A DNA stretch of 57,876 nt from positions 1 to 57,876 of IMG/VR virus record IMGVR_UViG_3300035195_000696, one strand, 5' to 3'. The stretch is from a virus. The notes under the pieces were generated by a model. It saw nothing but the letters and a program-made list of their open reading frames with translations. It made no database searches and was not told where the DNA came from. Of the stretch, positions 4,432-44,727 are shown one piece after another (the first letter of the stretch is position 1; the number at the start of each line of letters is the position of its first letter). The position numbers and the translations under genes were made by a program.

Positions 4432-4459
4432 TTGTTATTTTTTGCCGAATGGGTATTAT
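4432..4459 (+). promoter_or_regulatory. weak sigma-70-like promoter, TTGTTA-N16-TATTAT
   Basis: TTGTTA (4432-4437) and TATTAT (4454-4459) are spaced by 16 bp, the spacing of the clear promoters in this window. Downstream a small hairpin (GGGCGAA, CTC loop, TTCGTCC, about 4470-4487) falls in the leader of the DUF1559 gene, which starts at 4526. Confidence 0.35.
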
Positions 4460-4525
4460 AAGGTTTATAAGGGCGAACTCTTCGTCCTATCTAACCCAAT
4501 TTTACTTCAATTTAAAGGAAGAAAT

Positions 4526-5512
4526 ATGTACCAACGTAAAGGCTTTACACTCATCGAATTATTAGTGGTAATCGCAATTATTGGAGTATTAGTAGGGCTT
4601 TTGCTTCCTGCTGTACAACAGGCTAGAGAAGCAGCAAGACGAGTTTCTTGCACTAACAATTTAAAACAACAAGGTTTGGCTATGCACACAACTATGGATC
4701 AAAGAAGGTATTTTCCTGCTGCGGCATGGACTATCGAGGCGAAAGATTTAAGTGAGACTCCATCTGCACTTGGCAATCCATCACGAACAGAACATAGTTG
4801 GAGAGCATTTGTTCTTGCTAGTCTGGAGCAAAGGAATGTCATGGATTTATATGACTTTAATAAAAATTGGTGGGAGAATACACAGGCTGTAAGTACAACT
4901 GTAAATACATTTTTGTGTCCGTCTGCTTTGCCTGCTGGCGGTGGATATACAGATATTGATGGGCCTACCAGAGATGACGACAGTGCTGCTATCAGTATGA
5001 ATCCGAATAATCTAGGATATACAGACTATGAAACCTTTACAGGAGTTAAGAGTAAAGTATTTCCTGCTGGTAGCGATCCTTACGCAGCAAAAGGCCCGAT
5101 TGCAGAAGGATGCTTGGTAAAAGATAAAGTAACTAGAGAACAGCAAATAAGAGATGGCTTTTCTAATACACTTATGATTGCAGAGTGTAGCAGTAGGCCT
5201 GATACTTATAAAGCTGATACTAATAATGGTGGAACTCCTACAGGTGCTACTAATCAGTGTATTGGATGGGCAGATAGTGTGGGGCCATTTAAGTTAGATG
5301 GTATGGATAGTAATGGCGACAAGTGTAAGAATTGTGATGGCAATGTTCCATTTGGTGTTACTAATAATGGTGAAGCATTCAGTATGCACCCCGGAGTTAT
5401 GAATGCTTGTTACGCTGATGGATCGACTAGAACTATTAATAACAACGTAGACCTGAGAGTTTTTGCTGGAGTAATTACTAGAGCAGGTGGGGAAGTAGGA
5501 AGTATTGATTAA
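4526..5512 (+). CDS. DUF1559 family type IV pilin-like protein
   Basis: 328 aa. The start is ATG 4526 behind AAAGGAAG; upstream in-frame codons lack the family pattern. The N-terminus is a textbook prepilin leader, [17 protein letters not shown], cleaved after Gly6, with the conserved helix [20 protein letters not shown] and then [13 protein letters not shown]. The C-terminus ends in the family's [17 protein letters not shown] block. DUF1559 proteins are pseudopilin-like exported proteins found in dozens to hundreds of copies in Planctomycetota genomes; their job is unknown. Length and both ends are intact, so the gene looks functional. It is the best single clue to the host. It could be a captured host gene used for surface display or attachment; that is inference. 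Confidence 0.93.
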
Positions 5513-13646: not shown

Positions 13647-14648
13647 ATGGTAGGGCTTGACGTAGGCACGAGTTTTATTGTTCTGTCACAATACGATGGA
13701 GACAACATTAAATTCAAAGATTTTAGAGATGCGTTTTATATTATTAAACCATCTACTCCTATAGCAAATAAAATGATTGAAAAAGGTTTGGCAGGCAAAG
13801 TGTTTGTCAAAGATGAGGACGGTTCGTTTATTCTTTTAGGTTCTGATGCTATCGACAAAGCAGTAGAACGAAACGAAACGGCTCGTCGCCCTATGCACAG
13901 AGGAGTAATCTCTGTAAAAGAAAAAGAAGCCAAGCGTGTGCTAGCATACATTTTAAAAGAAGTAGTCGGTCAGGCTGAAACTAAAGGCGAGAAACTGGTA
14001 TACTGTGTTCCTGCACAACCAGTGGATCAAGAAGATGAGGACTTTGATGTAGGCTTCCACGAAGACACGGTACAAGCTATCCTTGCAGAAGTTGGATATG
14101 ACGCGAGGTCAGTGAATGAAGCAGAAGCATTGTGTTACGCTGAGTTAGAAGATACGGACTATACTGGCATCGGAGTTAGTTGCGGTGCAGGCATGACTAA
14201 TGTTTGTGTTATGCTCAACGGTGAACCAACAGTAGTCTTTAGTACCACAAAGTCAGGTGATTGGGTTGACCGCATGAGTGCAGTTGCCACAGGTGAACCT
14301 GATAGTGTTGTACAAGTAGAGAAAGAGGGCGGTGGTTTTAAAGTCGGTGAAGCTAATGACAATCCGGTTTTAAGTGCTGTTGCTTCTTACTATGAAAGAC
14401 TTATTGATTATACTGCTAAACAATTATCCGCAGCGTTAGATGGTCACAAATCTTTACCTAAGTTTAAAGACGACATCAAGATTGTTGTTGCTGGTGGCAC
14501 ATCGAGGGCTGAAGGTTATGTAGAAAAGCTAGAGGAAAAATTGAAAGAGTCAGGGTTTCCTCTTGATATTAAAGTCGTGAAACATGCAGACGATCCATTA
14601 CATTCAGTATCGAAAGGTTGCTTGATTGCTGCAAGTCTTCTGGATTAA
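13647..14648 (+). CDS. actin-like ATPase (ParM/MreB/Hsp70 fold)
   Basis: 333 aa. The three nucleotide-binding signatures of the actin fold are present: phosphate 1 MVGLDVGTSFIVL at the start, phosphate 2 GIGVSCGAGMTNVCVML near residue 180, and adenosine motif IVVAGGTSRAEGY near 285. There is no Hsp70 substrate domain, so it is filament-type (ParM- or MreB-like). Such proteins segregate plasmids or position phage DNA. It lies two bases after a membrane coiled-coil gene, which could supply an anchor. Two bases separate it from the methyltransferase downstream. The polymer class cannot be told by eye. Confidence 0.8.
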   Translation: MVGLDVGTSFIVLSQYDGDNIKFKDFRDAFYIIKPSTPIANKMIEKGLAGKVFVKDEDGSFILLGSDAIDKAVERNETARRPMHRGVISVKEKEAKRVLAYILKEVVGQAETKGEKLVYCVPAQPVDQEDEDFDVGFHEDTVQAILAEVGYDARSVNEAEALCYAELEDTDYTGIGVSCGAGMTNVCVMLNGEPTVVFSTTKSGDWVDRMSAVATGEPDSVVQVEKEGGGFKVGEANDNPVLSAVASYYERLIDYTAKQLSAALDGHKSLPKFKDDIKIVVAGGTSRAEGYVEKLEEKLKESGFPLDIKVVKHADDPLHSVSKGCLIAASLLD

Positions 14649-14650
14649 TT

Positions 14651-15229
14651 ATGAAAAACATTAGATTTCCAAAATCAAAATTAGCAACTGAATTATTAAC
14701 AGGTTTATCTGGTATTGAGATCGGAGGGTCAGCACATAACTCCTTCGGTCTCGATACTCTTAATGTTGACTACACTGATAGCATGGACACAGTATTTAAA
14801 GACGCAGAAAGAGATATGTGTGGAGAGGCTATGTCAGTTGATATCATTGCCTTTGGAGACGACCTGCCTTTTGCAGATAGTGAATTTGACTTTGTGATTA
14901 GTTCTCATGTGATAGAACATTTCTGGTGTCCTATAAAAGCAATAAAAGAATGGCACAGAGTAACAAAGAAGGGTGGATATATCTACATTGTATGTCCACA
15001 TAAAGATAGAATATTTGATAAGAATCGTCCTGTGACAGACTCAGCAGAAATCAGGGCGAGAGAAGGAAAGCCTATGCCTGAATGCGAAGACCCGTATATA
15101 CACTGGTCAGTGTGGACTACACAGGCCTTCGTTAAACTGTGCAAAGATATGGGTTGGAATATTCACACAGTTCAAGAAGTAGACGACAAAGTAGGCAACG
15201 GCTTTACCGTAGTACTACAAAATATTTAA
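14651..15229 (+). CDS. class I SAM-dependent methyltransferase
   Basis: 192 aa from ATG 14651; a longer frame from 14618 would overlap the actin-like gene. Motif I is poorly kept (GIEIGGSAHNSFG) but the later strands are clear: DDLPFADSEFDFVISSHVIE is the motif II/III pattern of Methyltransf_11 enzymes, then EWHRVTKKGGYIYIVCPHK. These enzymes methylate small molecules or sugars. The gene is convergent with the minus-strand sugar cassette and its stop abuts that cassette's last stop with no intervening base. Confidence 0.75.
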   Translation: MKNIRFPKSKLATELLTGLSGIEIGGSAHNSFGLDTLNVDYTDSMDTVFKDAERDMCGEAMSVDIIAFGDDLPFADSEFDFVISSHVIEHFWCPIKAIKEWHRVTKKGGYIYIVCPHKDRIFDKNRPVTDSAEIRAREGKPMPECEDPYIHWSVWTTQAFVKLCKDMGWNIHTVQEVDDKVGNGFTVVLQNI

Positions 15230-15883
15230 TTAGTGCATTATTAGTTTGATGCCACCACTAACACATACTTGTTGTATAGTACTTCTACAACCCGAGCGAA
15301 GGCCCCAGCTATAAGGATGGCTATCAGACTTGTTGGAAAAATTAGCATGGTGTCCTGTGTACTTGTCTCTTTCGTCCGTTGATTCTCCAGCAGCGATGCC
15401 ATAGGTTTCGATTTCTTTTATATTCAGCATAAATGCTCTTACAAACTGAACTGCTCTGGGGCCACTACTCCCGATGACTTTACTTGTGTAACTGCCATCA
15501 TGACGATTTAAATTTATATAAGGAATATAAGTCCCTTTAAATTTAGCAGTTGAAAGAATGTCCGCAACAGTAGTATGATCAATTTTTTGCTTACTCCAGT
15601 CTTTGCCGTTTGCGTTCACTACTAATCCTTTGTGTGGTATCGCTGGAGTCGCAACATATTTTAATGAGCCTAAAGATGTAAAATCACTAAAAAATTCTAC
15701 ATCTTGGCACAATAATATATCAGGATTAATAAGAAAATCTACAGCATGATTCACTCCCATTAGTAAAGTTTTTTTATTTGGTTTACTTATTGGTTGAAAA
15801 GTTGGGCCTTTGCCAACAATTATAGCCTTTGTGTATTGATCAAACATATGGGGATTAAAATTATTATCTAAGATTATGTTCAT
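15230..15883 (-). CDS. glycosyltransferase-like protein (DUF115/GT42-like start)
   Basis: 217 aa. The first part reads KAIIVGKGPTFQPI, then MGVNHAVDFLINPDILLCQD; this resembles the GNGPSL and N-x-A pattern of sialyltransferase-like (GT42) and MptE-like/DUF115 proteins, which bind CMP-sugars or pterins. Further on IGSSGPRAVQFVRAF and ETYGIAAGES fit a second half of such a fold. It is the last gene of a three-gene minus-strand operon, overlapping the CMP-sugar synthetase gene by 20 bases, which supports a CMP-sugar transferase role. The exact family is uncertain. Confidence 0.5.
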   Translation of the reverse strand: MNIILDNNFNPHMFDQYTKAIIVGKGPTFQPISKPNKKTLLMGVNHAVDFLINPDILLCQDVEFFSDFTSLGSLKYVATPAIPHKGLVVNANGKDWSKQKIDHTTVADILSTAKFKGTYIPYINLNRHDGSYTSKVIGSSGPRAVQFVRAFMLNIKEIETYGIAAGESTDERDKYTGHHANFSNKSDSHPYSWGLRSGCRSTIQQVCVSGGIKLIMH

Positions 15884-16544
15884 TAGTATTTCCTTTCAAG
15901 TTTTTACACAGGGCTTCTGAGAAACTAAAATCAAAAGCAGTATCAATGTCTACTGCCTCTATCTCATTGCATGGATAAAAGAAGCAGTTGTCTCCAACCA
16001 CATACTTTTTCTCTATTGCTTTCTTTGTTTTAATGATACAACATCCAAAGGTCAGGTTGTTTACAATTTGTAAATCTTGACTATTAGGTGGAGTATCTAA
16101 AGAAAAGTTGACAGGTTTACCATCCATGAAATAGAAATCTTTATTAACTCCAACAGAAGCTACAGAGTCATAGTCGTGACTATTATAGAACTCTATCATC
16201 TCTGTCATCTTCTCTCTACCCATGAAAGGAGACATAGGAGAAGCGTAGATCAGTGTTTCTGTATCAATATCTTTAAAAAGACTATACATGAAGTCAGGCA
16301 CTTCCGTTGTCGAAAGTGCATACTTCTCATCTCTCTTAACGAAGACAACTCCGCTAAGATGTTTTACAGCATCTATGATCTCTTCTGAGTCTGTATTAAC
16401 AATTACATAATCAATTAAGTCTACAGCCAGCAGTTGCTCAACTTTGTTAGCTATCAAAGAAGTCTCACACCAAGGTATAATATTCTTTTTAGGAACTCGT
16501 TGAGAACCGATTCTAGCTGGAACTATTGCAGCTATATTACTCAT
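15864..16544 (-). CDS. CMP-sugar synthetase (acylneuraminate cytidylyltransferase family)
   Basis: 226 aa. Starts MSNIAAIVPARIGSQRVPKK; the PARxGSxRxPxKN signature is the CTP-binding loop of NeuA/KdsB-type enzymes. DYVIVNTDSEEI, ASPMSPFMG and EAVDIDTAFDFSFSE (metal-binding region) follow in the expected order, and the length equals typical NeuA N-domains. The enzyme activates a keto-acid sugar (sialic, pseudaminic, legionaminic or similar) as its CMP derivative. It overlaps the aldolase gene by eight bases. No NeuB-like synthase is in the window, so the sugar is either taken from the host or made by the neighbouring DRE-TIM enzyme. Confidence 0.85.
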   Translation of the reverse strand: MSNIAAIVPARIGSQRVPKKNIIPWCETSLIANKVEQLLAVDLIDYVIVNTDSEEIIDAVKHLSGVVFVKRDEKYALSTTEVPDFMYSLFKDIDTETLIYASPMSPFMGREKMTEMIEFYNSHDYDSVASVGVNKDFYFMDGKPVNFSLDTPPNSQDLQIVNNLTFGCCIIKTKKAIEKKYVVGDNCFFYPCNEIEAVDIDTAFDFSFSEALCKNLKGNTNEHNLR

Positions 16545-17520
16545 TCACTACCTCTTTAGTTACATCTTTACTATAAAAACAAATGTGCTTATCGTCTATC
16601 TTTTCGATAAGGCTTATTACGTCTTTATCTTTATGACTGTTGCAAATCTCTTTGATATAGTCAGGGTGTACTTTCTTAGCACCAGCAACCATATACAAGA
16701 AATCTTTAACATAGTCAGGGAAATGCTTACTAAAGAAGTTGTACATTGTACGAATGTAGCCATAATCACAATCTGATCTAAGCATCAGAGTCTCAGTTCT
16801 CAGATTGCCTAATGCTCTACCCATACCGTGTAGACAACTATCAATATAAGTGTAACCTAAATTTGAAGCTATCATGCTTTTCTCATAAGCGTTTTCTAGA
16901 TTATTATGGGTGTGTAACCCGATAGTTCCTCTATACTGCTTTTTCAAAACGTCTGTTAGAGAATGTAGTTCTGCTACTGTAAAGCTACCAAACGTGTCTG
17001 CAATATATAGACACTGGAATGGAATATCTTTGATGAACTTAACTATCATCTCTATCTCGTCTTCTGTTATAAGATCGCCACAAGGCAAATTAAGAGTCAC
17101 GTTGTAACCCTTGTCTATCAGTTGTCTTGCAACTACAGAAGCCTCTAAGACTTTCTCTGGACTGAAACCAGATACAGTCTCACCATTTACTTTGTAACTT
17201 CTTGGGATAAGTATTCTAACAAGACTGATCTTGCTATCTTTTCTATCGCGGAAGTCTTCTAGGTCGAAACCACCTAGCTTAACCATGACTGCGATCTTGC
17301 AGCCTTGATAATGAGAGTATATCCTGTCTATGTCACTGTCTAAGCAGTGAGCCCATTTTCCTTTGGTCGGAGCATACTTTGGATTACCTTTAAAGCCAAT
17401 CTCAAAATAATCGAACCCCAACTCTGTAACAGTTTTGTATGAGTCAATAACAAACTCATCTGTAAACTGCCAATCATTTAAATAACCACCATCACGAATG
17501 GTACAATCTAAAAGTTTCAT
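16537..17520 (-). CDS. DRE-TIM aldolase (HMGL-like)
   Basis: 327 aa, starting behind GGAGGTGC. MKLLDCTIRDGGY is the DRE-type metal site of the HMGL/4-hydroxy-2-oxovalerate aldolase family; GLHTHNNLENAYEKSM carries the HxH metal ligands and DSCLHGMGRALGNLRTE the conserved C-terminal loop. Full length for the catalytic barrel; no regulatory domain. In bacteria members of this group occur in surface-sugar clusters next to acylneuraminate cytidylyltransferases, as here. It may make or cleave an alpha-keto acid sugar before CMP activation. First gene of the operon. Confidence 0.85.
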   Translation of the reverse strand: MKLLDCTIRDGGYLNDWQFTDEFVIDSYKTVTELGFDYFEIGFKGNPKYAPTKGKWAHCLDSDIDRIYSHYQGCKIAVMVKLGGFDLEDFRDRKDSKISLVRILIPRSYKVNGETVSGFSPEKVLEASVVARQLIDKGYNVTLNLPCGDLITEDEIEMIVKFIKDIPFQCLYIADTFGSFTVAELHSLTDVLKKQYRGTIGLHTHNNLENAYEKSMIASNLGYTYIDSCLHGMGRALGNLRTETLMLRSDCDYGYIRTMYNFFSKHFPDYVKDFLYMVAGAKKVHPDYIKEICNSHKDKDVISLIEKIDDKHICFYSKDVTKEVVNE

Positions 17521-17582
17521 AATGCACCTCCAATAAAAACCAAAAAAACCAACTACTATTAATTACACCGGCAAAAAAATTT

Positions 17583-17610
17583 TCTATATCCACAACAAGT
17601 AACAAGACAA
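17583..17610 (-). promoter_or_regulatory. possible minus-strand promoter, TTGTCT-N16-TATAGA
   Basis: On the minus strand TTGTCT (17610-17605) and TATAGA (17588-17583) are separated by 16 bp, about 63 bases upstream of the aldolase start at 17520. The -10 is a moderate match; it is the best candidate for the minus-strand operon. Confidence 0.4.
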
Positions 17611-17739
17611 CCATTGTTTTATTCGTGTTTATGTTTCTAGTTATTAAAAATATCCAAAAAACGAAAACAGTAATATCTAACAACAGCTACTATAGTTCCG
17701 GCAAGCAAGGTGTATATAATAATATAACAAACATCTATG

Positions 17740-17886: not shown

Positions 17887-18273
17887 ATGTTATTTAAGCG
17901 AGAATTGAGATACGCAGCACGTTCTTCAAAATGGCCTGCGTTACGTAAAGAACATTTAAAAGAGCAACCGGTATGTCAGGCTTGTGGTTCAGATAGAAAA
18001 CCAGAAGTCCATCATATCGTTCCTGTCCATCTTGATCCATCTCGTGAATTAGACCCTTCTAACTTAATTACTCTTTGTGATAAGTGGTGTCACTTTGTTT
18101 TTGGTCATTTATTAAACTATCAAAGTTGGAATAAAGACGTTGTAAGAGATGCTCGTATATATCTTGACAAGATACGTACTCGCCCATATAAAACAAAGGA
18201 GGGTAACAACTATGAGGCTTTTGATTGGTATTCTGCTGCTGTTTATAACAGTTCAGCTAATGACCCCGACTAG
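17887..18273 (+). CDS. HNH endonuclease
   Basis: 128 aa. A compact HNH nuclease: VCQACGSDRKPEVHHIVPVH carries the first CxxC and the catalytic HH, SNLITLCDKWCH the Asn region and second zinc pair. A Lys/Arg-rich N-terminus fits DNA binding. No strong ribosome site precedes the ATG. Free-standing HNH genes in phages act in DNA packaging, as homing enzymes or in degrading competing DNA; nothing here separates these. The last 62 bases overlap the exported protease gene. Confidence 0.8.
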   Translation: MLFKRELRYAARSSKWPALRKEHLKEQPVCQACGSDRKPEVHHIVPVHLDPSRELDPSNLITLCDKWCHFVFGHLLNYQSWNKDVVRDARIYLDKIRTRPYKTKEGNNYEAFDWYSAAVYNSSANDPD

Positions 18274-22746: not shown

Positions 22747-23226
22747 ATGGACAGTCTTATTACATTGACAGAGAGTGAATTTGCCTCTTTTGATAGCGTT
22801 GCATACGAAGAATCAAGAGTAAAGGTCGGAAAGTCTAGAGTTCATGGTCGTGGAGTTATGGCTACTGAAACTATTTTAGCCAATGAATTAGTAGAAAGGT
22901 TTCCTCTCGTTCCTCTCGCATTTCGTATTAGGTATCAGGGAGACCCGATGTTGTTGAGTTCAACACTGATCCATACTACTTGTCCTTGTGAAGAATGCAA
23001 ACAGCATGGATGGAAAATGTATATGCAGGGTGGTAATGGAATGTTCTATAATCATCAAGATACTAATAATGCTGTTGTAAGAGTTCATTGGGATATGCTA
23101 TATGTAGAAGTCAAAGCAATAGCTCCAATACCCGCAGGCACAGAAGTCTATATAGACTATGGTAATAATTATCCTTGGGAAGTGTCAGGAATTGAAAAGG
23201 TGACTATAGAAAGTAGCCAGCAATGA
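22747..23226 (+). CDS. SET-domain protein (lysine methyltransferase-like)
   Basis: 159 aa. The SET order is visible: KVGKSRVHGRGVMATETI (the SRVHGRG start), an inserted segment with CPCEECKQHG, GMFYNHQDTNNAVV (the NHxxxxN knot) and AGTEVYIDYGNNYPW (the ELxxDYG motif). SET proteins methylate lysines in proteins using SAM. Free-standing SET proteins occur in some large phages with unknown targets. Its end overlaps GMP reductase by four bases. Confidence 0.8.
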   Translation: MDSLITLTESEFASFDSVAYEESRVKVGKSRVHGRGVMATETILANELVERFPLVPLAFRIRYQGDPMLLSSTLIHTTCPCEECKQHGWKMYMQGGNGMFYNHQDTNNAVVRVHWDMLYVEVKAIAPIPAGTEVYIDYGNNYPWEVSGIEKVTIESSQQ

Positions 23227-24344
23227 AGATAGTTGACGAACTAAAATTAGATTTTGATGATGTATTGATTAAACCTAAGAGGTCTAGCCTCAGTACTCGT
23301 TCAAATGTGCATCTTAATAGAGATTTTATATTTAGGCATTCACCGAGAAAACTAAGGTGCATACCTCTGATTGCTGCAAACATGGACACCACTGGTAGCA
23401 TGATGATGGCTCGTCAGCTAACTAAAGAAGGTGGACTAGTAGCACTCCACAAACACTACCATCCTGATGAATATATAAACTTCTATATGAAGGCACATTC
23501 ATTAGAATATCCAGCATCACATTCTTTTTTCTCTATCGGCACAAAAGATAAAGATATGCTAAGATTAGTCAAAGTATTTGAAGCCCTCGACGAATATCCA
23601 AATATTTGTGTAGATGTTGCAAACGGCTATAGCGAAGGTTTCGTGCAAAAGCTAGCAGAAATCAGACAACAATACCCAAAAAGTATTATCATGGCTGGCA
23701 ACGTAGTGTCTCCAGAAATGACAGAAGAATTAATACTACATGGTAAAGTTGATATAGTTAAAATAGGTATAGGATCAGGCAGCGTCTGTACAACTAGACT
23801 AAAAACTGGCGTTGGATATCCTCAACTATCAGCAGTAATGGAATGTGCTGCTGCTGCACATGGGCTAGGTGGTCATGTTTGTAGTGACGGAGGCTGCAAA
23901 ACTCCTGCTGATGTATGCAAGGCATTTGGTGCTAACAGTGATTTTGTAATGTTGGGTAGTATGCTTGCAGGCACAGACTGCTGTGAAGGCAAATGGAATC
24001 TTGAATACTTTCAGAAGACCATTAAAGATAACAAAATAACAGAAGAGTGGGTCAGTGAAGACCCCGGCTTTGAAACTAAGACAAGAAAAAAGAGTCTTGT
24101 TTTCTATGGCATGAGTAGCAAAACGGCACAGGATAAGCACAACGGAGGTTTATCAGCCTACAGAACCAGCGAAGGTAGGACTGTAGTAATACCTTACAAA
24201 GGCAGCACAGAAGAAGTGATGTCGGATATTTGTGGAGGTCTAAGAAGTTGCGGAACATACATAGGTGCAGATTGCATTAAAGATTTTGGAAAGAAGACGA
24301 TTTTTATTAAGGTTAAAAATACTCATAACAGGATATACGAATGA
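23223..24344 (+). CDS. guaC: GMP reductase
   Basis: 373 aa, close to E. coli GuaC (347). It starts ELKLDFDDVLIKPKRSSL, has IPLIAANMDTTG, ICVDVANGYSEGFVQK and IVKIGIGSGSVCTTRLKTG with the catalytic cysteine and threonine, then VCSDGGCKTPADVCKAFG, LFYGM-type FYGMSSKTA and the ending KNTHNRIYE, matching GuaC rather than IMP dehydrogenase (no CBS domains). GuaC turns GMP into IMP with NADPH, allowing guanine nucleotides to feed adenine synthesis. In an AT-rich phage this could shift the purine balance. The gene looks intact and is coupled to the SET gene. Confidence 0.93.
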   Translation: MKIVDELKLDFDDVLIKPKRSSLSTRSNVHLNRDFIFRHSPRKLRCIPLIAANMDTTGSMMMARQLTKEGGLVALHKHYHPDEYINFYMKAHSLEYPASHSFFSIGTKDKDMLRLVKVFEALDEYPNICVDVANGYSEGFVQKLAEIRQQYPKSIIMAGNVVSPEMTEELILHGKVDIVKIGIGSGSVCTTRLKTGVGYPQLSAVMECAAAAHGLGGHVCSDGGCKTPADVCKAFGANSDFVMLGSMLAGTDCCEGKWNLEYFQKTIKDNKITEEWVSEDPGFETKTRKKSLVFYGMSSKTAQDKHNGGLSAYRTSEGRTVVIPYKGSTEEVMSDICGGLRSCGTYIGADCIKDFGKKTIFIKVKNTHNRIYE

Positions 24345-25402
24345 ACATACATATAAATTCACCTATCGGTGGCACTGGATACGGCGTTGCTAGTTTTAAT
24401 ATCTTGAAAGGTCTATCACAACTACCAGAAACAAATGTCTCACTATCTGTAATAGGTAGCCCTCATTTAGATAATCAAAACGATGTTGAGTATGTACAAG
24501 AAGCACTTAATAATTCTGTCTCTGTAGATTATAAAGCAGCTACATTAAAGATATGGCATCAATTTGATTTGCTTAATAGGCCGGGAAGAGGCAAGTACTT
24601 TGCATTGCCATTTTACGAAGTTGATACCTTAGACGAGAGAGAAAAGCATCACCTCGGTTTTCCTGATCATCTTATTGTTTCTTCTAAGTGGGCTAAAGGA
24701 GTCCTAAAAGAAAATGGTATTAAAAAACGTGCTACTGTCGTACCAATGGGAGTAGATAGTGTCATGTTTAGTCCTCAAGAAGTAACTATAAATAAGCCTA
24801 ACTATATATTTTTAACAGTAGGGAAATGGGAAGTAAGGAAAGGACATGACGTAATACTAGAATGCTTTAACAAGGCGTTCAAAGAAACCGACAATGTAGA
24901 ATTATGGATGGCAACATCCAATCCGTTTCTGAATCAAGAGGAAGTGGGCAAGTGGACTAATTTAGTAGAGTCATCACCTCTCAAGAATAAAATTAGGCTA
25001 TTCCCAAGATTTCCAACACATGAAAAGATAGCAGAACTGATGTCGTATTCTGACTGTGGACTGTATCCATCTAGAGGAGAAGGATGGAATTTAGAACTGC
25101 TGGAACATATGGCTATGAACAAGCCAGTGATAGCAACTAATTGGTCGGCACACGAAGAGTTTTGTACTAAGAAAAATTCAAGACTCATAGACGTTACTGA
25201 AAAAGAACTAGCATATGATGGAAAATGGTTTTTTGGTAAGAGTAGTTGGGGAAAAATCGGTCAAAATCAAAAAGACCAACTCATTAGCCATATGCAAGAG
25301 GTTTATAATACAGGCATAAAAACCAACCCAGCAGGCGTTGAGACAGCCAAGAAGTTTTCATGGAAAAATACTGCTGAAAATCTTTTAAGGTGTATGTCGT
25401 AA
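24341..25402 (+). CDS. GT4-type glycosyltransferase
   Basis: 353 aa. N-terminal domain starts MNIHINSPIGGTGYGVASFN; the linker region has VVPMGVDSVMFSP, and the C-terminal nucleotide-sugar domain has LTVGKWEVRKGHDVILECF, PRFPTHEKIAELMSYSDCGL and PSRGEGWNLELLEHMAMNKP (the E-x7-E motif). It is a GT-B retaining enzyme of family 4. ATGA overlap with guaC. Donor and acceptor are not evident; it may glycosylate virion proteins, DNA or host surface. Confidence 0.88.
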   Translation: MNIHINSPIGGTGYGVASFNILKGLSQLPETNVSLSVIGSPHLDNQNDVEYVQEALNNSVSVDYKAATLKIWHQFDLLNRPGRGKYFALPFYEVDTLDEREKHHLGFPDHLIVSSKWAKGVLKENGIKKRATVVPMGVDSVMFSPQEVTINKPNYIFLTVGKWEVRKGHDVILECFNKAFKETDNVELWMATSNPFLNQEEVGKWTNLVESSPLKNKIRLFPRFPTHEKIAELMSYSDCGLYPSRGEGWNLELLEHMAMNKPVIATNWSAHEEFCTKKNSRLIDVTEKELAYDGKWFFGKSSWGKIGQNQKDQLISHMQEVYNTGIKTNPAGVETAKKFSWKNTAENLLRCMS

Positions 25403-36453: not shown

Positions 36454-36694
36454 TTTATTTATATGGGCGGTATATGGTATTTTTGTAGGATCAATAGCTA
36501 AAACTATAGTTCCCGGCGAAGAAAACTTTGGTTTCATTAAGACTGTAGCTTTAGGAGTCATAGGATCATATATGGGAGGGGCAGGATTATATATGCTAGG
36601 GTCATATTCTGCAATAGAACCAGCAGGTATTTTTGCTGGCGTAGCAGGCAGTGTACTAGCGTTAGTACTGTACAATAAATTAAATGAGAAATAA
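36446..36694 (+). CDS. GlsB/YeaQ/YmgE-family membrane protein
   Basis: 82 aa; ATG 36446 behind CTGGAGG. Three hydrophobic helices with the family glycine pattern: IWAVYGIFVGSIAKTIVPGE, VALGVIGSYMGGAGLYML, and IFAGVAGSVLALVLY. These small inner-membrane proteins are linked to stress responses in bacteria; in phages the role is unknown. Like the PspC-like protein at 3233, it hints at control of envelope stress. Confidence 0.78.
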   Translation: MFSLFIWAVYGIFVGSIAKTIVPGEENFGFIKTVALGVIGSYMGGAGLYMLGSYSAIEPAGIFAGVAGSVLALVLYNKLNEK

Positions 36695-37610
36695 AACAGC
36701 AGTATTCTTACATTTATACCACCAAGATCAAGCAAAGTATTTTTACGACTATCTTTTCCCAATTAAAGATATGGTAGATTTATATATCACACTCCCCGAC
36801 TCAGTAGACACTGCTGTTGCAGTCAGTATGTTCAGTGACCTGAATACTAAGATTGACTATGTAGATAATGTTGGTGGAGATATATTGCCATTTCTAAGAA
36901 CTTTAGTAAAATATGGATCACATTATAAGTATTTTTTTAAAATACATAGTAAAAAAAGCCTACTCCATAGATTCTGTAACTGGAAAGAAATATTAGTATA
37001 TGAACTATTAGGTAGTCCAAAAATACTAAAACAAAACTGCCTATTGTTGGATAATACTTTTATAGATAGTATAGGTCCGCTTTCCATGCTGATGAACCAC
37101 GATAGATGCCACAAGCCCTATATCCACTTTCTTATGGATGAATTAGGCATACCTTTCGATAATTATAGTCATTTTGTTGGAGGTACTATGTTCGCAGGCT
37201 GTTCTGAAACATATTTAAAATATTTCAATAAAGAGGTTGTAGATTATATAGAAGGGCTTATGATAGATAATAAGGAACTTGGTCGTACAGTAAAAGATCA
37301 GGATGTTAAGGGTCTTTGTGTAGCAACTTATATTCATGCCTTAGAAAGAATTTTTGGCTATTTAGGAAACCTTTATCCTATAACTATGTCCACTATTACC
37401 GTGAACGGAATCAACTCCCCTAAACAAATAGTGATCACTAAAAATAATGAAGTCTATTGCCATAACGACAATTCAATTTGTGGTAATATAGTAGAAGAAG
37501 ATTTGGATAACCTGACTATCATATGGAAACATAAAAGACCTAGAAGAAAAGAGATATACAAAAAGATTTCTGAGAACACAATAACGAAGGTTACGAATGA
37601 CTCCAGATGA
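36684..37610 (+). CDS. rhamnan-synthesis-F-like glycosyltransferase
   Basis: 308 aa. AVFLHLYHQDQAKYFYDYL, DLYITLPDS, NVGGDILPFLRTLVKYGSHY and FFKIHSKKSLLH follow the RgpF pattern (HLYY...T...NxGxDixPFL...KxHxKKS). A later HFVGGTMFAGCSETYLKYF fits the acceptor half. RgpF proteins build rhamnose-containing polysaccharides. It sits between structural genes, suggesting virion glycosylation or surface remodelling. Confidence 0.75.
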   Translation: MRNKTAVFLHLYHQDQAKYFYDYLFPIKDMVDLYITLPDSVDTAVAVSMFSDLNTKIDYVDNVGGDILPFLRTLVKYGSHYKYFFKIHSKKSLLHRFCNWKEILVYELLGSPKILKQNCLLLDNTFIDSIGPLSMLMNHDRCHKPYIHFLMDELGIPFDNYSHFVGGTMFAGCSETYLKYFNKEVVDYIEGLMIDNKELGRTVKDQDVKGLCVATYIHALERIFGYLGNLYPITMSTITVNGINSPKQIVITKNNEVYCHNDNSICGNIVEEDLDNLTIIWKHKRPRRKEIYKKISENTITKVTNDSR

Positions 37611-39687
37611 ACTATATGAGGAACTCACAAGAAACCCTTGTGATCCTAATCCAACATCACCTAGAACGATTGATTTCCTTGCAGGAAACAGCGAAGTATT
37701 CGGTACTTATTCACAGGGGGTTTCTGCTGCCTATTGGTTGGCTAGAATTGTTGATGCCGCCTCTATTTTAAAATATCCTTGCTTTAGTGCCGCAGCAGAT
37801 TCTACACTATACAGTGCAACTAATAATGACCATGAATACCAATTAGTATTGCCATTTAAATTTTTAGAACAATTAGATGGCGGGGCTTATAAAGAATGTT
37901 GCTCAATACCACAAGCCGCAGTAGCACACGCTTTCAGGAACTCTGCGGACACTATGAGGGCTTGTCACTATGTAGGAGATAACAATTTCTCAAAAAGTTT
38001 TCACAGAATGGCTACTGAATACATGACATACTGGGGATGGAACAGCATACCAGACAATATGTTGATGATGGGGCCAGATTTAATACCAGCAGAAGAAGTA
38101 GGACGAACTCTAGAAGCACAAGACGTACTTGAAGTAAGGTCTCCTACAGTAGGAGTAATGAATTGTTGGCCCGGAAATCAAGGTGTGCCGGGAGCCGCAC
38201 ATTCATGCGTAGCATGTGCTGGTGAAGATCAGCCAAAGTGTAGATCGTGTGGCTGCTGCCCACCAACCGACCCTCCTCCTGAAAACGACCCTTGCTGTAA
38301 GCAAGGAACTCCAGAGTACTATAGTGAATGTTGTGGATTTGATAGGACTAGCGTATTTGAGGGTAGATATATACAGTTCGCATACTGGGTTCCTTCTCAA
38401 GACGGTTCGCAGAGAGGAGACTTATCATCAGGTAGACAAGATGAAAAAATGTATCACATAGGAGTTTTAGAAAGAAGAGAATATTCAGGTATATGTAACC
38501 TAAGAAACAATCAGGCAGGCAGATTAAACACTATTGATAAAGGCCTATTCTTTGAATGGCTACAGGAACGTAATGGCTGGAATTATGAAACGATGAAGCC
38601 AAAGGTTACTGATCCTGATAGTCCCAACTTAAAACAAGACGAAAAAATAGAACGAATTAGGGCTACAGTGCCTCTTATGCTAGACGTAAGCGTAAGCAGC
38701 AAAGGAGGGATGCCAAGTTCATCCAGTGACTACGAAGCATATCTTAGAACAATAAAGCAACTGCTCTGGAACGGAGAAGGCGTAGCTTTGTTTACTAACG
38801 TAGGTTTTCCCAGCAGAAGAGACAGTCAAGGTTTAGCCTATCCAGATCGAATATGGTATACAATGTATAGTATCATAGGCTATGACGATAGAAGACTAGA
38901 GTTTGATGAATGCGTCTATGTTCTACAATGTCCATTAGGAGATTGGATAAGTGGAGGCAATCCAAGTTGGGGGCCATTACCAGATGGTTCTTTTTTAGTT
39001 ACTGAAACAGTTCTAAAAGACATGATTAGATACATGAACGGTAGCGACTATTATCCTTGTAGACAAGAAGTCTGCCCAGCCAATGAAGGGATAGATTGTA
39101 ATGATCCTTTTGTTAGAGAAGAGTATGCGGGATGTCAAGGAGTTCCTATTTATCCTAACTGCCTCCCCTACTTCTGTACTAAAAGACAAAGTGCTTTCGG
39201 TATGTTATTTGCTCTCTCTCTTAATCCTCGTTTCACCCAAAGTAACAAGGGTGATAATTTGTTGCACTATTCTCAAAGCATACCTACTCATGTTACAGCA
39301 GATTTGATTTCACAGAGTAAGGCTTATTGCAAAATACCTTCTCATGAAATTGAATGCGAAGGAGAAGGAGAAGATGAGAAATGTACTTCTGATGCTGTAA
39401 ATCTAGAGTTTATTTGGGGTTACGGAAGAGTCTTTAATAATGAAGGAGTGATGGATCGTCTTGAAGGTAATATGTACAAGGACAGAGCATTTAAAAAACG
39501 GGCTTATAATCATTCTAGAGAGCATCAGGACATAGAGACATCCGCAATACCTTTAAACTGCGTAGATGAAGTCGGTTCTGCGACCATCAACATACAATGG
39601 GAAAGATATTTAGGCTATCTTAAAGTAAACGTAGCAAAGCCACCGGGATATCACATAATTCACTTAGTAGGAAAAGGATGTTTTTAA
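37597..39687 (+). CDS. papain-like pseudoprotease, probable virion protein
   Basis: 696 aa. Its start (MTPDELYEELTRNP) resembles that of the papain-like gene (LTPDDLYRLYREGMPG). The core aligns by eye with that protein at NVGFPSRRDSQGLAY (versus YGFSNKRDSKGFA) and SGGNPSWGPLPDGSFLVTE (versus SGGHPEWGPIPDGSFLIHA), yet every catalytic residue is replaced: Cys to Gly41, His to Thr422, Asn to Cys445. A Cys-rich insertion with 11 cysteines spans residues 190-246. The C-terminal third has no recognised family. It is likely a structural, possibly ligand-binding, derivative of the active enzyme. Confidence 0.7.
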   Translation: MTPDELYEELTRNPCDPNPTSPRTIDFLAGNSEVFGTYSQGVSAAYWLARIVDAASILKYPCFSAAADSTLYSATNNDHEYQLVLPFKFLEQLDGGAYKECCSIPQAAVAHAFRNSADTMRACHYVGDNNFSKSFHRMATEYMTYWGWNSIPDNMLMMGPDLIPAEEVGRTLEAQDVLEVRSPTVGVMNCWPGNQGVPGAAHSCVACAGEDQPKCRSCGCCPPTDPPPENDPCCKQGTPEYYSECCGFDRTSVFEGRYIQFAYWVPSQDGSQRGDLSSGRQDEKMYHIGVLERREYSGICNLRNNQAGRLNTIDKGLFFEWLQERNGWNYETMKPKVTDPDSPNLKQDEKIERIRATVPLMLDVSVSSKGGMPSSSSDYEAYLRTIKQLLWNGEGVALFTNVGFPSRRDSQGLAYPDRIWYTMYSIIGYDDRRLEFDECVYVLQCPLGDWISGGNPSWGPLPDGSFLVTETVLKDMIRYMNGSDYYPCRQEVCPANEGIDCNDPFVREEYAGCQGVPIYPNCLPYFCTKRQSAFGMLFALSLNPRFTQSNKGDNLLHYSQSIPTHVTADLISQSKAYCKIPSHEIECEGEGEDEKCTSDAVNLEFIWGYGRVFNNEGVMDRLEGNMYKDRAFKKRAYNHSREHQDIETSAIPLNCVDEVGSATINIQWERYLGYLKVNVAKPPGYHIIHLVGKGCF

Positions 39688-41342
39688 TGGATAGATTTGA
39701 AGTAGAAAATTTTACCACAGTCACAGACTTAGTAGATCAGGACTGCACCTTCTCGCTCCCTGTAAAATCAGAGTTTGATCTTGTAGACTTAAATAGATGT
39801 TTTATACAAGGAGGGTCTGTTACGTTTACAGACAAATATAGGCTTTCCAATAGTCAAGCATGTGTAACTGTTATGGAAAAATTGTTTCCAGTGCCTTCAT
39901 GTGTTTATCCAGAAGATGAAGATGGAGAAGAATCAGACACTCCTAAAGAATTAAGAACAGAGGCACAAGCAAGTACGTTGTTTGGTATTTCAGACCCAGA
40001 GACTTTAGGAGAAGTACAGACAAGTAGTGAGTGGGAACCTGCATCAGACTATGAAGACAGCAAGTCTTATGAATATTGGGACTCTGTGAACGCCATAAAC
40101 AACAACATATCTTACACTAACATCCTAGATGAATGCGAAATAAGTTTTTATGGTCTACCTAAAGGAGAAGCATATATATGTTCTTGGGTGAATGGAGGGA
40201 TTCTACTTTGTAATAATATGAACTTTTTTGCAATCAACTTGGATTCTCCACCTCCAGTAGAAGAAGAGGATGCCGCTTTTTTTGCTAGCTTTGAAAACCC
40301 TATGGAATCACGAAACTATGGATGCTATTTAATAATTGATGGTCAAGACAGAAGTAAAATACCAAATAGAGAAGATGGTATTCCTGTAGAGCAAACAGTA
40401 ACGAACCAAGAAATTAGATTTATTAATAACACCTTGACTGCTGAAGAACAATGGTATCACGCGTACTTTGTACAACCGCTAGCGTACAGGCTTACATTTC
40501 AAGACCTTCAAGTTTATAAAATGGATTTAATTTCCTATGACAACAGTGCTGGCGACGATACGACCAAGCTGTTTCCACCACCTGTAAAAAGGCCTGATCT
40601 ACAGGAGGCAGTGTTTGATTACGACAGCATGAGTTCAGAATGCGTGTATAGCTACAGCAGTATAAAGGCTTATGATCTACCAGCAGGAGGTGCAGGATAT
40701 CTAGTTTTCCCAAATCTTGAATTGTATAATACCGAAGTCTCCGCACCTCAAACTATTTATGTGGAGGATGACATCGTGATTGACGAACTATCAGCAATGT
40801 CTTGTGGTAAACTTGTTTGTGGCAGCATAGATAGTCTCGACAGTACAATTACTGTAGGAGACCTAGGAGGTGAAATCCTTGGAGGATGTAACTTAGAGAG
40901 CTCAACTTTAAATGTAGAAAACCTTGCTAATAATCCGCTTGTTGTGGGAGACGCTATTACCGCTAGTTACTCCAATATTAAGATTAATTTTTTAAATTTA
41001 GATGACACATTATCTGCTGTGTTCTCCAGTATTAACATAGGAACTTTTCGTGGTAAGTGCTTCCTTGACGGTAATAATACGGTAAATTTTGGCACCTTTA
41101 TCGGTGCCTGTAATCTCTCAAATCAGGATGCTTTCCGAATAGAAACACTGTATGTTGAAGAAGGTGGATTTCTAAGAGCAAACGGTAAAATCAACAAGGT
41201 ATATGCTTATGATACTATCGGTGTCATTGACTGTATTGTAGAGGTAGATGAATGGTACGGTGAACTTCCCGGTATGTCAAACGCGGGGTCTGTAATTTCA
41301 GGTTATTATAGCCCTGATTTACCTCCTTTTCCGGGGACTTGA
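39687..41342 (+). CDS. beta-rich appendage protein
   Basis: 551 aa; ATG 39687 has AAAGGA upstream, whereas an ATG at 39678 would lie on that site. An acidic N-terminal half is followed by a C-terminal third of short beta repeats (LGGEILGGCNLESSTLNVEN, INIGTFRGKCFLDGNNTVNF) with regular Gly/Asn turns, as in right-handed beta-helices. Such folds occur in tail spikes. No catalytic motif is seen. It overlaps the pseudoprotease stop by one base. Confidence 0.6.
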   Translation: MDRFEVENFTTVTDLVDQDCTFSLPVKSEFDLVDLNRCFIQGGSVTFTDKYRLSNSQACVTVMEKLFPVPSCVYPEDEDGEESDTPKELRTEAQASTLFGISDPETLGEVQTSSEWEPASDYEDSKSYEYWDSVNAINNNISYTNILDECEISFYGLPKGEAYICSWVNGGILLCNNMNFFAINLDSPPPVEEEDAAFFASFENPMESRNYGCYLIIDGQDRSKIPNREDGIPVEQTVTNQEIRFINNTLTAEEQWYHAYFVQPLAYRLTFQDLQVYKMDLISYDNSAGDDTTKLFPPPVKRPDLQEAVFDYDSMSSECVYSYSSIKAYDLPAGGAGYLVFPNLELYNTEVSAPQTIYVEDDIVIDELSAMSCGKLVCGSIDSLDSTITVGDLGGEILGGCNLESSTLNVENLANNPLVVGDAITASYSNIKINFLNLDDTLSAVFSSINIGTFRGKCFLDGNNTVNFGTFIGACNLSNQDAFRIETLYVEEGGFLRANGKINKVYAYDTIGVIDCIVEVDEWYGELPGMSNAGSVISGYYSPDLPPFPGT

Positions 41343-41366
41343 CAACCAGTAGAATAAAACTATTAT
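41339..41366 (+). promoter_or_regulatory. sigma-70-type promoter, TTGACA-N16-TATTAT
   Basis: TTGACA (41339-41344, overlapping the preceding stop) and TATTAT (41361-41366), 16-bp spacer, 29 bases before the start at 41395. It should drive the glycan block. Confidence 0.6.
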
Positions 41367-41394
41367 AAGTATATCTCTATTAAGGAAACGACCT

Positions 41395-41997
41395 ATGTCT
41401 ATATCATACACAGTAGTTGTACAAAATGAACTTAATGAAGTCAAAAGACTTCATCATACGCTAGGAGTCTGCAAAAGGGATCAAGACGAGACTATAGCTG
41501 TGCATCTTTACCGAGAAAACCAAGAAATGAGTGACGCTATCCATGTAGAGATCAAAGAATATTTGATGGATAATTTTGACACATATTGTAACTATAAAAA
41601 TGAAAATGATATAACCCACTTAAAAAACTATGTTTGTGACTTAGCCACTAAAGATTATATTTTCCTGTTAGATGCAAATGAATTTTTAACTGCACAAACA
41701 CTTGCACTGTGGAACAACGTAATCAAGAATGAACCCGCATATGATATATTTTGGACTCCCAGAGTAAATATTGATGATACAATTAGTGATAAAGAAAAAG
41801 AAGAACGATACGGATTAAAACTTAATGAAAAGGGGTGGATCAACTGGCCTGATAATCAGCCTAGAATTATTAAAAAAAGTGCTGGTCTGATATGGCAACA
41901 ACAGGAAAGAGGCATCTCAATCAAAGGGGCTAAAAAGTCAGGGTCTCTGGCACCAGACCCAAGACTAGCTACCGTAAACCATAAGAGGAATCAATGA
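41395..41997 (+). CDS. degenerate GT2-like glycosyltransferase (paralogue 1)
   Basis: 200 aa, behind AAGGAAAC. Aligns along its length with the next gene: MSISYTVVVQNELNE, then DYIFLLDANEFLTAQTLALW, then LNEKGWINWPDNQPRIIKK. In GT2 enzymes the metal site is DADE; here it reads DANE, and the downstream VHEQ element is replaced by ERGI. It is probably inactive or altered in specificity. Tandem duplication of 41994. Confidence 0.7.
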   Translation: MSISYTVVVQNELNEVKRLHHTLGVCKRDQDETIAVHLYRENQEMSDAIHVEIKEYLMDNFDTYCNYKNENDITHLKNYVCDLATKDYIFLLDANEFLTAQTLALWNNVIKNEPAYDIFWTPRVNIDDTISDKEKEERYGLKLNEKGWINWPDNQPRIIKKSAGLIWQQQERGISIKGAKKSGSLAPDPRLATVNHKRNQ

Positions 41998-42626
41998 GCA
42001 TATCGTACACTGTAACAGTTTATAACGAGTTAAAAGAACTAAAGACTCTCCTTCCACTTCTCAAACAGGTTAGGTCACATAATGATGAAATAATTATCGT
42101 GCATACTTTTAGAGAAGAAAAAGAAAAACAGACAAACTTAGATGTAGATATCCGTCAATACTCACAGCAAGTAGCAGATACATACATGAGGTATCATTTT
42201 GATAAAAGGTTTGCTGAAATGAAAAATTTTACCAATGGATTAGCTAATAAAGATTGGATTATAAATTTCGATGCAGACGAATACGCTTCTGTGGAAACAA
42301 TCGAAATATGGAAAAGCCAACTAACAGAAGAAGTTGACATGTTATATGTTCCTCGTATCAATACAGTAGAAGGCCACACAGAAGAAGACGTTAAGAAATA
42401 TAGCTGGAACATCAATGAAAACGGATGGATTAACTGGCCTGACTATCAGCCAAGAATATTTAAAAATAACGGCAACATTAGATGGGAAGGTAACGTCCAC
42501 GAACAAATTGTAGGATACAAAGAAATGGGAGGGTTTCCGCAAAATCCACAATGTGCATTAATACATAGTAAAGAGATTAATAAGCAACGCCAACAAAACG
42601 AATTATATGAAAGTATTAAAAGATAA
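41994..42626 (+). CDS. GT2-family glycosyltransferase (paralogue 2)
   Basis: 210 aa, ATGA-type overlap with the previous gene. MSISYTVTVYNELKELKTLL, AEMKNFTNGLANKDWIINFD, ADEYASVE (intact DADE), LYVPRINTVEG and IRWEGNVHEQIVG, the usual order for a small GT2 enzyme. It probably adds a sugar using a nucleotide-sugar donor. The intact copy of a tandem pair. Confidence 0.8.
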   Translation: MSISYTVTVYNELKELKTLLPLLKQVRSHNDEIIIVHTFREEKEKQTNLDVDIRQYSQQVADTYMRYHFDKRFAEMKNFTNGLANKDWIINFDADEYASVETIEIWKSQLTEEVDMLYVPRINTVEGHTEEDVKKYSWNINENGWINWPDYQPRIFKNNGNIRWEGNVHEQIVGYKEMGGFPQNPQCALIHSKEINKQRQQNELYESIKR

Positions 42627-42964
42627 TGGATAAGTTACGCTACATAATACATATGTTCCCCTTTTGTAAAGAGTCCTCAGAATATAAATCGGAGGAATCT
42701 CTGAACAACTGGGCAGACACAGAAGATTTTATAGAACTATTTGACAACTTTGTACAGGTTTGTGTTAGGCCTTTATATCTGGGTGCAATAGTGGTAGACT
42801 CTAAGCCTGTATTTATAATAGGAGAGCCTACAGAATGCGAATATGGCTGGTACACTAAAAATGAATCTGTTTTTTGCGTACCTTTCACAGACAGTATGTC
42901 AATGAAGTTTAGTGTCTCTAAGCAAACTATTGATACAGGAGAATACTACAGACAATATGATTAG
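42626..42964 (+). CDS. 112-aa hypothetical protein
   Basis: The start shares one base with the previous stop. A Cys/Tyr-containing soluble protein (LRYIIHMFPFCKESSEYKSE, EPTECEYGWYTKNES). No known motif. Lies inside the glycan operon and overlaps the next gene by eight bases. Confidence 0.5.
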   Translation: MDKLRYIIHMFPFCKESSEYKSEESLNNWADTEDFIELFDNFVQVCVRPLYLGAIVVDSKPVFIIGEPTECEYGWYTKNESVFCVPFTDSMSMKFSVSKQTIDTGEYYRQYD

Positions 42965-43727
42965 TGTAATTATACCAACATTTAAGACTCCTCAAGCATT
43001 AGACTTATGTTTACGGTCTGTTATTGAAGGACAGGAAAAACTCAATGAGATATTAGTGATTGTTGATGGAACCCTTGAGGTCAATACAGATGTTCTCAGT
43101 AAATACTACAGCCAAATACACCCTGTCGTCCTACCTAGCAATGTTGGAATGACCAGAGCACAAAACCTTGGAGTGTCTTTAGCTAAAAATAAGCGTGTGC
43201 TTATTACAAATGATGACAATGTTTTCCCCAAGGGATGGGACACTATTTTGGGGAAATTAGATGTTACAAATTCAGTGATGGCACCCAATCAGATTGAGCC
43301 TTACAACAGCATGTTTAGCCAGTTTGTTATTAAGGACTGCGGTAAAGACCCAACAGAGTTTGACTTAGAAGGTTTTTGGGAATTTGAAGAGTCCCAAAGA
43401 AAAGACCTAATTGAAGACACCGGCTCTACCTATCCGATATATATGAGCAGGTTGAATTATATGGCTTGTGGAGGCTTTGATATAGAATATCCTACTTTAA
43501 CAGGTTCATATACTGATTGGGATTTTTTCTTGAAATGCGAACTTAATGGATGGAAGATGCTAAGGACTTATCAGTGTTCTTTTTATCATTTTGTTTCAGT
43601 AAGCAGAAAAAGTTCAGAAGCTAAAGTCAAAGAGCAGTCGATAGAAGCAGAATGTAAAAAGTTTTTTGCTACTAAATGGCAAAATCAACCGAAACACAAT
43701 CCAATAAATAATTCTAAAATGATATAG
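42957..43727 (+). CDS. GT2-family glycosyltransferase
   Basis: 256 aa from ATG 42957 (MISVIIPTFKTPQALDLCLR), which is where the conserved GT-A fold begins; an in-frame start at 42912 would add 15 residues outside it. NVGMTRAQNLGVSLAKNKRV, LITNDDNVFPKGWD (DDN metal site) and YTDWDFFLKCELNGWKM complete the pattern. Likely adds a sugar to a virion or surface glycan. Confidence 0.83.
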   Translation: MISVIIPTFKTPQALDLCLRSVIEGQEKLNEILVIVDGTLEVNTDVLSKYYSQIHPVVLPSNVGMTRAQNLGVSLAKNKRVLITNDDNVFPKGWDTILGKLDVTNSVMAPNQIEPYNSMFSQFVIKDCGKDPTEFDLEGFWEFEESQRKDLIEDTGSTYPIYMSRLNYMACGGFDIEYPTLTGSYTDWDFFLKCELNGWKMLRTYQCSFYHFVSVSRKSSEAKVKEQSIEAECKKFFATKWQNQPKHNPINNSKMI

Positions 43728-43737
43728 AGGGGCAACA

Positions 43738-44727
43738 ATGACAAAATGTTTAATCACCGGTAATGCTGGACTTCTAGGTTCCAACTTAGCAGACTATATA
43801 TTAGATAATACAGATTGGATAGTCTATGGTGCTGATGATATGAGTGGAGGATATGAAAACAATATAGACCCTCGCGTAAACCATAATACAATTAGCTGCA
43901 ACCACTCTGACTTTAAGAACTATTTTGCTAAAATTAAACCGGATTATGTATTTCATCTAGCCGCTTATGCAGCGGAAGGATTGAGTCCTTTTATTAGATG
44001 TTTTAATTATGAAAATAATCTCAAGGCAACCGCAAATGTGGTCAACTGCTGTATCATGAATGGAGTAGAGAGACTTGTATTTACTTCTACTATGGCTACA
44101 TATGGTGACTTAGAAGCACCATTCGATGAAGCTATGCAGCCTATGCCTATTGATCCATATGGAGTCGCTAAATATGCTGCTGAGTGCGATATACGCATAG
44201 CAGGAGAGCAACACGGTTTAGATTGGTGTGTTATTAGACCCCATAATGTTTATGGTCGCAAACAGAACATTTGGGATAAATACAGAAACGTATTAGGAAT
44301 ATGGATGTATCAGGCATTAAACAATGAACCTATGACTATATTTGGAGATGGTCATCAGACAAGAGCATTCAGCCATATTAATGACAGCGTAGAACCACTA
44401 TTTAAATCAGCGGTTGACTCCAGAGCATCTAAGCAAATTATTAATCTAGGAGGAATGAAAGAATTTTCTATAAATTTCGCCTGTGACACTTTGTTAAATA
44501 TCATAGGAGATGGTTCTAAAAAACATTTAGAGAGTAGACACGAAGTAAAACATGCTTTCGCTACTTACCAAAAATCTATAGACTTATTAGATTTTGAACA
44601 CAAGACCGATCTAAAAGAAGGTCTAGTTGATATGTGGGAGTGGGCTAAAAAGCAACCTAAACGTGAAAGGTTCATTTGGCCTTTTTATGAAATAGATAAA
44701 AATATTTATTCTTACTGGAAACATTAA
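43738..44727 (+). CDS. NAD-dependent sugar epimerase/dehydratase (extended SDR)
   Basis: 329 aa. MTKCLITGNAGLLGSNLADY is the NAD-binding loop, YVFHLAAYAAEG and FTSTMATYGD the central strands, and DPYGVAKYAAECDIR the Tyr-x3-Lys catalytic pair. HNVYGRKQNIWDKY and FGDGHQTRAFSHI follow GalE-type enzymes. It interconverts nucleotide sugars, most likely a UDP-hexose, for the neighbouring transferases. Confidence 0.86.
   Translation: MTKCLITGNAGLLGSNLADYILDNTDWIVYGADDMSGGYENNIDPRVNHNTISCNHSDFKNYFAKIKPDYVFHLAAYAAEGLSPFIRCFNYENNLKATANVVNCCIMNGVERLVFTSTMATYGDLEAPFDEAMQPMPIDPYGVAKYAAECDIRIAGEQHGLDWCVIRPHNVYGRKQNIWDKYRNVLGIWMYQALNNEPMTIFGDGHQTRAFSHINDSVEPLFKSAVDSRASKQIINLGGMKEFSINFACDTLLNIIGDGSKKHLESRHEVKHAFATYQKSIDLLDFEHKTDLKEGLVDMWEWAKKQPKRERFIWPFYEIDKNIYSYWKH

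Follow-up and report, generated by a model that had tools for sequence, protein, structure and literature searches.

A phage gene cassette pairing a DRE-TIM aldolase with a CMP-sugar synthetase: a candidate aldolase-based route to CMP-activated sugar acids

The routes known to lead to CMP-Kdo and CMP-nonulosonates begin with PEP-dependent synthases of the NeuB/KdsA type, and genome surveys take genes of this type as pathway markers. In the Kdo pathway (KdsA, KdsC, KdsB, and WaaA), C–C bond formation yields a 2-keto sugar acid, which is activated in a CTP-dependent step and passed on by a transferase, whereas the nonulosonic acid pathways (Neu5Ac, pseudaminic acid, and legionaminic acid) use NeuB/PseI, NeuA/PseF, and Maf or GT42/GT29 proteins. 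The phage gene cassette analyzed here is proposed to follow the same order of steps as the Kdo pathway, but an HMGL/DRE-TIM aldolase would stand in for the PEP-dependent KdsA, the synthetase is of the NeuA/PseF type rather than KdsB, and the transferase would be of the GT42/DUF115 type; the HAD phosphatase of the Kdo pathway is matched only by bacterial versions of the set, and the phage cassette has no phosphatase. With the nonulosonic acid pathways it shares a similar CMP synthetase and a GT42/Maf-related partner, and GT29-like partners also occur in related aldolase-bearing phages; however, the aldolase takes the place of NeuB, which was not found in the 57.9-kb record. Virus-borne ulosonic acid chemistry also appears in the Acinetobacter phage proteins EpaA and EpaB, which are reported to alter pseudaminic acid by converting a host-made sugar (PMC12053666), whereas the present cassette seems to encode synthesis, activation, and transfer.

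The material was IMG/VR record IMGVR_UViG_3300035195_000696, which was analyzed over its whole length of 57,876 bases (the window). The record carries genes typical of large phages (homologues of RIIA/RIIB, clamp loader, DnaB, UvsX, PhoH, and RNR) and is a fragment of such a phage, the sister contigs of which reach 171–230 kb. The cassette consists of three overlapping minus-strand genes (17520–15230), with an 8-bp overlap between the aldolase and synthetase ORFs and a 20-bp overlap between the synthetase and 217-aa ORFs. The features of the locus are as follows.

13647..14648, plus strand: actin-like (Volactin family) gene, left flank of the slot (PF25216, 1.2e-66)
14649..17683, no strand: variable cargo slot, set by the limits of blastn homology to the sister contig L171; content differs among sisters
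14654..15229, plus strand: class I SAM methyltransferase, convergent with the cassette (Methyltransf_11, 3e-13)
15230..15883, minus strand: putative divergent GT42/DUF115-like protein, proposed transferase, 217 aa (14.1–14.3 bits against a phage DUF115-like profile)
15864..16544, minus strand: CMP-sugar (NeuA/PseF-type) cytidylyltransferase, 226 aa (PF02348, 6.2e-16)
16537..17520, minus strand: HMGL-like (DRE-TIM) aldolase, proposed maker of a 2-keto sugar acid, 327 aa (PF00682, 3.6e-18)
17542..17594, no strand: element of about 55 bp lying ahead of the minus-strand cargo (shared with L171:11221–11275 at 80% identity, blastn 5e-7)
17887..18273, plus strand: HNH endonuclease, right flank of the slot (PF01844, 1e-6; synteny in sisters)

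A first-pass annotation, made from the sequence without database searches, had described this as the only minus-strand block, which is true in substance: the record has six further ORFs of 100 aa or more on this strand, but the majority overlie genes of the plus strand and one sits at the extreme end. The same annotation recognized three overlapping genes including an aldolase and a CMP-sugar synthetase, and the ORF coordinates and Pfam matches agree, making both identities firm. Its statement that NeuB is missing holds for the 57.9-kb record, in which PF03102 had no match, but does not extend to the whole phage genome, of which the record is a fragment. Elsewhere in the record, a second glycan cluster lies on the plus strand (36684–47192) and contains RgpF-like, two GT2, NAD epimerase, dTDP-sugar 3,5-epimerase, GT4-like, and sulfotransferase-like genes. 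A SET-domain gene (22747–23226) adjoins an IMP dehydrogenase-like gene (23223–24344), a pair also found in many sister phages. A DUF1559 prepilin (4442–5512, 9e-38) and a DUF1501 protein (15–1256, 7e-130) are also encoded; both families are known mainly from Planctomycetota, and these genes are possibly a signal of the host or captured host genes.

The 327-aa protein scored 66.4 bits against PF00682 (curated cut-off, 29), and the closest solved structure to its subfamily was 3DXI (83 bits), a putative aldolase without assigned function, and we found no publication that connects it with such a CMP-sugar pathway. R9 and D10 (RD motif) and the HxH ligands H203 and H205 are invariant in the alignment of the aldolase family (A1). 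The DRE-TIM barrel family, the RD motif, and the HxH metal ligands are shared with DmpG/HsaF (TIGR03217), but RDGGY occurs where DmpG/HsaF has RDGSH, in the region of the catalytic His, and unlike those enzymes the cassette-type aldolase is linked to CMP synthetases. Assignment as a 4-hydroxy-2-oxovalerate aldolase was rejected (TIGR03217, 52.1 bits; equivalog cut-off, 286). When the aldolase or the synthetase was used as a lone query, the scans returned no close relatives. The nearest aldolase is viral (locus L091, 37% identity, tree support 100/99) and adjoins a synthetase and two GT29-like genes.

The 226-aa protein scored 59.3 bits against PF02348 (CTP_transf_3; cut-off, 22.6) and matched the CMP-Neu5Ac synthetase 1QWJ at 2.5e-7. 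Two specific assignments were rejected: PseF (TIGR03584, 69.3 bits; equivalog cut-off, 205.7) and KdsB (at most 43.6 bits; equivalog/subfamily cut-offs, 155–281), the latter also having the QGDEP motif where the cassette protein has YASPMSP. Neither the synthetase nor the aldolase reaches the equivalog cut-off for any known substrate. The DxD metal pair is kept as DID at residues 199–201; in the N. meningitidis enzyme the Asp209/Asp211 pair was found by mutagenesis to be essential, and in the Neisseria CMP-Neu5Ac synthetase Gln104 is critical for Neu5Ac binding (PMC2901514). Ser102 aligns with this Gln104 in the cassette synthetase, which points to another sugar; therefore, Neu5Ac itself is an unlikely substrate, as judged from the alignment. 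The equivalent of Gln104 is replaced by His or Ser in the aldolase-linked NeuA-type synthetases of the window and of L067, L125, and L138, a hint that several of these enzymes use a substrate other than a sialic acid.

The 217-aa protein had no match in Pfam (E ≤ 1), NCBIfam, PHROGs, or, by sequence, the PDB. Single-sequence searches at ordinary thresholds returned nothing from viral contigs, phages, or plasmids, nor from 45 virus records, 25 genomes, and a set of 392 genomes from one phylum; a degenerate motif scan with [IV]I[IV]GKGP[ST]F was likewise empty. We built a profile from phage DUF115-like proteins without the 217-aa protein and then scored that protein against it, obtaining 14.1–14.3 bits over residues 19–178, which include a GKGPT motif and an SSGPRAV...IKEIETYG region. 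None of 2000 shuffled sequences reached this score (best, 11.2), and of the 7392 ORFs searched, those scoring as high were all DUF115- or GT29-like, the first unrelated ORF receiving about 10 bits. Two later iterations of the profile gave the protein less (12.5 and 10.8 bits), with one shuffle passing the last. Single-sequence hhalign against the phage DUF115-like proteins gave 27.8 versus at most 19.1 for 30 shuffles, over a 41-residue stretch only; against bacterial C-terminal domains and GT29 the scores were no better than those of shuffles. A joint profile of the phage DUF115-like family and the 217-aa protein (A2, 28 rows), which tests the family rather than that protein alone, matched the GT42 sialyltransferases Cst-II/Cst-I best (7e-6 to 1.5e-4), followed by MptE (0.05) and Maf (0.15). 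Structure prediction, proposed in the first-pass annotation, was performed with AlphaFold: the pLDDT was 28.5 from the single sequence and 51.7 with the 28-row alignment, in which only the core was fair (pLDDT of core residues, about 80), and a Foldseek search with this low-confidence model returned no significant match, the hits being noise. The GT42/DUF115 label given earlier thus gains a weak but specific profile match; we assign the protein, which matched no Pfam family, with moderate confidence as a divergent GT42/DUF115-like protein. Outside support for the use of CMP-ulosonates by proteins of this type comes from the resemblance of the Maf_flag10 domain (PF01973) to Cst-II and from the transfer of Neu5Ac and Kdo by CbMaf (PMC11339370).

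A genome-context search for the triplet found it recurring in both viruses and bacteria. The aldolase family alignment as query recovered 80 genome loci and 80 viral loci, and removal of near copies at 80% aldolase identity left 43 non-redundant viral loci. A cytidylyltransferase was present in 35 of the 43, fused to the aldolase in 21 and within 150 bp in 14; related loci inflate such counts, and some of the IMG/VR contigs may be bacterial. Chance pairing of the aldolase and the synthetase is excluded. A GT42/DUF115- or GT29-like gene lay within 5 kb in 29 of the 35 loci with a synthetase versus 1 of the 8 without (p = 3.6e-4, a value inflated by relatedness); by partner type, 8 viral loci had GT29 only and 15 had DUF115 only. 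The HMGL + CTP_transf_3 fusions in L092, L111, and L125 were confirmed by Pfam, with the synthetase N-terminal in L111 and C-terminal in L092 and L125. In the aldolase tree these three fall into different clades, so the fusions appear to have arisen independently, a reading tempered by the long branches of the tree. L137 contains a comparable triplet of three separate overlapping genes, and in L111 and L121 the fusion is followed directly by a DUF115-like gene. No NeuB was found in the eight aldolase-bearing virus records tested. Among other neighbors, the synthetase–aldolase pair of L158, L160, L161, L165, and L168 (about 4.5–5.4 kb) has a YjbQ-like (UPF0047) gene just before it and an SDR gene after it, and PfkB-family sugar kinases, possibly linked to the sugar substrate, lie beside aldolase–synthetase loci at L017:5624–6667 and L138:3193–4218. 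We found no paper describing the aldolase–synthetase linkage in a literature search whose coverage was thin for subscription papers and excluded bioRxiv preprints.

The cassette lies in a variable cargo slot. With the actin-like gene as query, 80 sister contigs were found (75–97% identity), and the actin gene always stood beside the slot in the order rIIA, rIIB, clamp loader, (thioredoxin), small gene, actin, slot, HNH, trypsin-like, and subtilisin-like. In blastn against the closest sister, L171, 94% homology stops at 14648, the stop codon of the actin gene, and restarts at 17683; the methyltransferase gene (14654–15229) is inside the segment absent from L171, the slot of which instead holds a different methyltransferase and a minus-strand sulfotransferase-like gene. 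Given this break in homology and the different content, the cassette was swapped as one block, probably together with the methyltransferase, which could modify the sugar or have a role unrelated to the cassette. The slot is often empty in sisters, and other sister slots contain GT25-like, GT29-like, GT11-/GT2-like, nucleotidyltransferase-like, HAD, or methyltransferase genes, several of them named from sequence motifs and some on the minus strand. The element at 17542–17594, which stands upstream of unrelated minus-strand cargo in two sisters, is possibly a promoter or an exchange site. Among 41 sister records, none carried the aldolase and six carried a synthetase. In L252 (1483–2772), the CMP-sugar synthetase is fused to an RraA-type aldolase (PF03737, 2.8e-18) of an unrelated fold, and in L257 (1432–2917) a NeuB gene overlaps a DUF115-like gene, which suggests that the front-end enzymes are interchangeable and feed similar activation and transfer steps.

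The proposed aldolase-based pathway is wider than viral, and the earlier description of a new viral glycosylation pathway fails insofar as it implied a purely viral one. In bacteria (Myxococcota, Omnitrophota, Bacillota, and several Pseudomonadota), the aldolase often carries a fused DUF115-like domain at its C terminus, with PF01973 seen below cut-off in the fusions L014 and L016. A synthetase was present in the locus for 13 of 14 such fusions versus 2 of the 42 aldolases lacking this fusion (p = 7e-10); these synthetases are KdsB-like, and HAD phosphatase-like genes occur in 12 of the fusion loci. By analogy, this aldolase–DUF115, synthetase, and HAD set would parallel KdsA/KdsC/KdsB. The bacterial fused domain aligns with A2 at 98.7% probability, and a profile of it (A3) matched MptE 8SD5 (0.003) ahead of Cst-II (0.24–0.47).

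On balance, we consider it fairly probable that the cassette encodes a version of the CMP-ulosonate (Kdo/nonulosonic acid) pathways built around an aldolase, and that it is carried as exchangeable glycosylation cargo. The DRE-TIM aldolase would condense an aldehyde sugar with a 2-keto acid of the pyruvate type, replacing NeuB/KdsA; the cytidylyltransferase, as its family and active-site motifs suggest, would couple the resulting 2-keto sugar acid to CMP; and the 217-aa protein may then hand the sugar on to its acceptor, which would be a protein of the phage virion or a glycan on the host surface. This last step is the weakest of the three, and is supported by the joint profile matching Cst-II/Cst-I first. 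Against this reading, no HAD phosphatase or sugar kinase is encoded within the cassette, so the substrate would need to be unphosphorylated or dephosphorylated by another enzyme. The earlier idea of a compact set that would make, activate, and transfer an ulosonic-type sugar is thus partly supported, its core being strongly favored by the genomic context (35/43 with a synthetase, 29/35 with a GT-like gene).

The main rival reading accepts the aldolase and the synthetase as proposed but regards the 217-aa protein as an MptE-like nucleotide-binding or kinase protein that prepares or binds the substrate, leaving attachment of the sugar to another phage glycosyltransferase, candidates for which are present in the record (24341–25402 and 36684–46608). 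PF01973 is named after a pterin pyrophosphokinase, the bacterial fused domain hits MptE before Cst-II, and a transferase fused to the first enzyme of a pathway would be unusual. However, the phage family prefers Cst-II/Cst-I over MptE by almost four orders of magnitude (7e-6 versus 0.05), GT29-like sialyltransferase genes fill the same role in other phage loci, and in a sister phage the partner of a DUF115-like gene is NeuB; we therefore regard an MptE-like accessory role as unlikely.

Two further readings would deny the cassette a part in glycosylation. That the aldolase is catabolic or makes a small branched acid, and that the cassette serves to salvage or divert sugar acids of the host and decorates nothing, would suit the small acids used by the nearest characterized families (4-hydroxy-2-oxovalerate aldolase and isopropylmalate/homocitrate synthases), the many stand-alone bacterial homologues without a synthetase nearby, and one plasmid copy near catabolic genes. 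Yet an activation step would be useless in catabolism, the aldolase is repeatedly fused to or overlaps CMP-sugar synthetases, and its loci sit among polysaccharide genes, which makes this reading quite improbable. The genes could also be decaying or host-derived passengers without function in the phage, as the fast turnover of slot content and the presence of the aldolase in none of the 41 sister records might suggest; but the three frames are intact and overlapping, the metal-site motifs of the aldolase and the synthetase are kept, and the nearest aldolase is itself viral, and we give this account very little weight.

Returning to the aldolase-based pathway, a broader and more tentative proposal, to which we assign slightly less than an even chance, is that CMP-activated 2-keto sugar acids are widely made by a route in which a DRE-TIM aldolase, or independently an RraA-type aldolase, replaces the PEP-dependent NeuB/KdsA and works with dedicated synthetases and GT42/GT29-like transferases, and that phages swap its modules in fused or split form as glycosylation cargo, yielding an undescribed sugar acid. 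Such a route would escape surveys that rely on NeuB/KdsA markers, although its genes were found here in numerous phages and across no fewer than four bacterial phyla, and the gene fusions offer a direct prediction of the pathway partners. If the proposal is true, phages could make a foreign acidic sugar and attach it to the virion or the host surface, which would bear on superinfection, receptor masking, and recognition.
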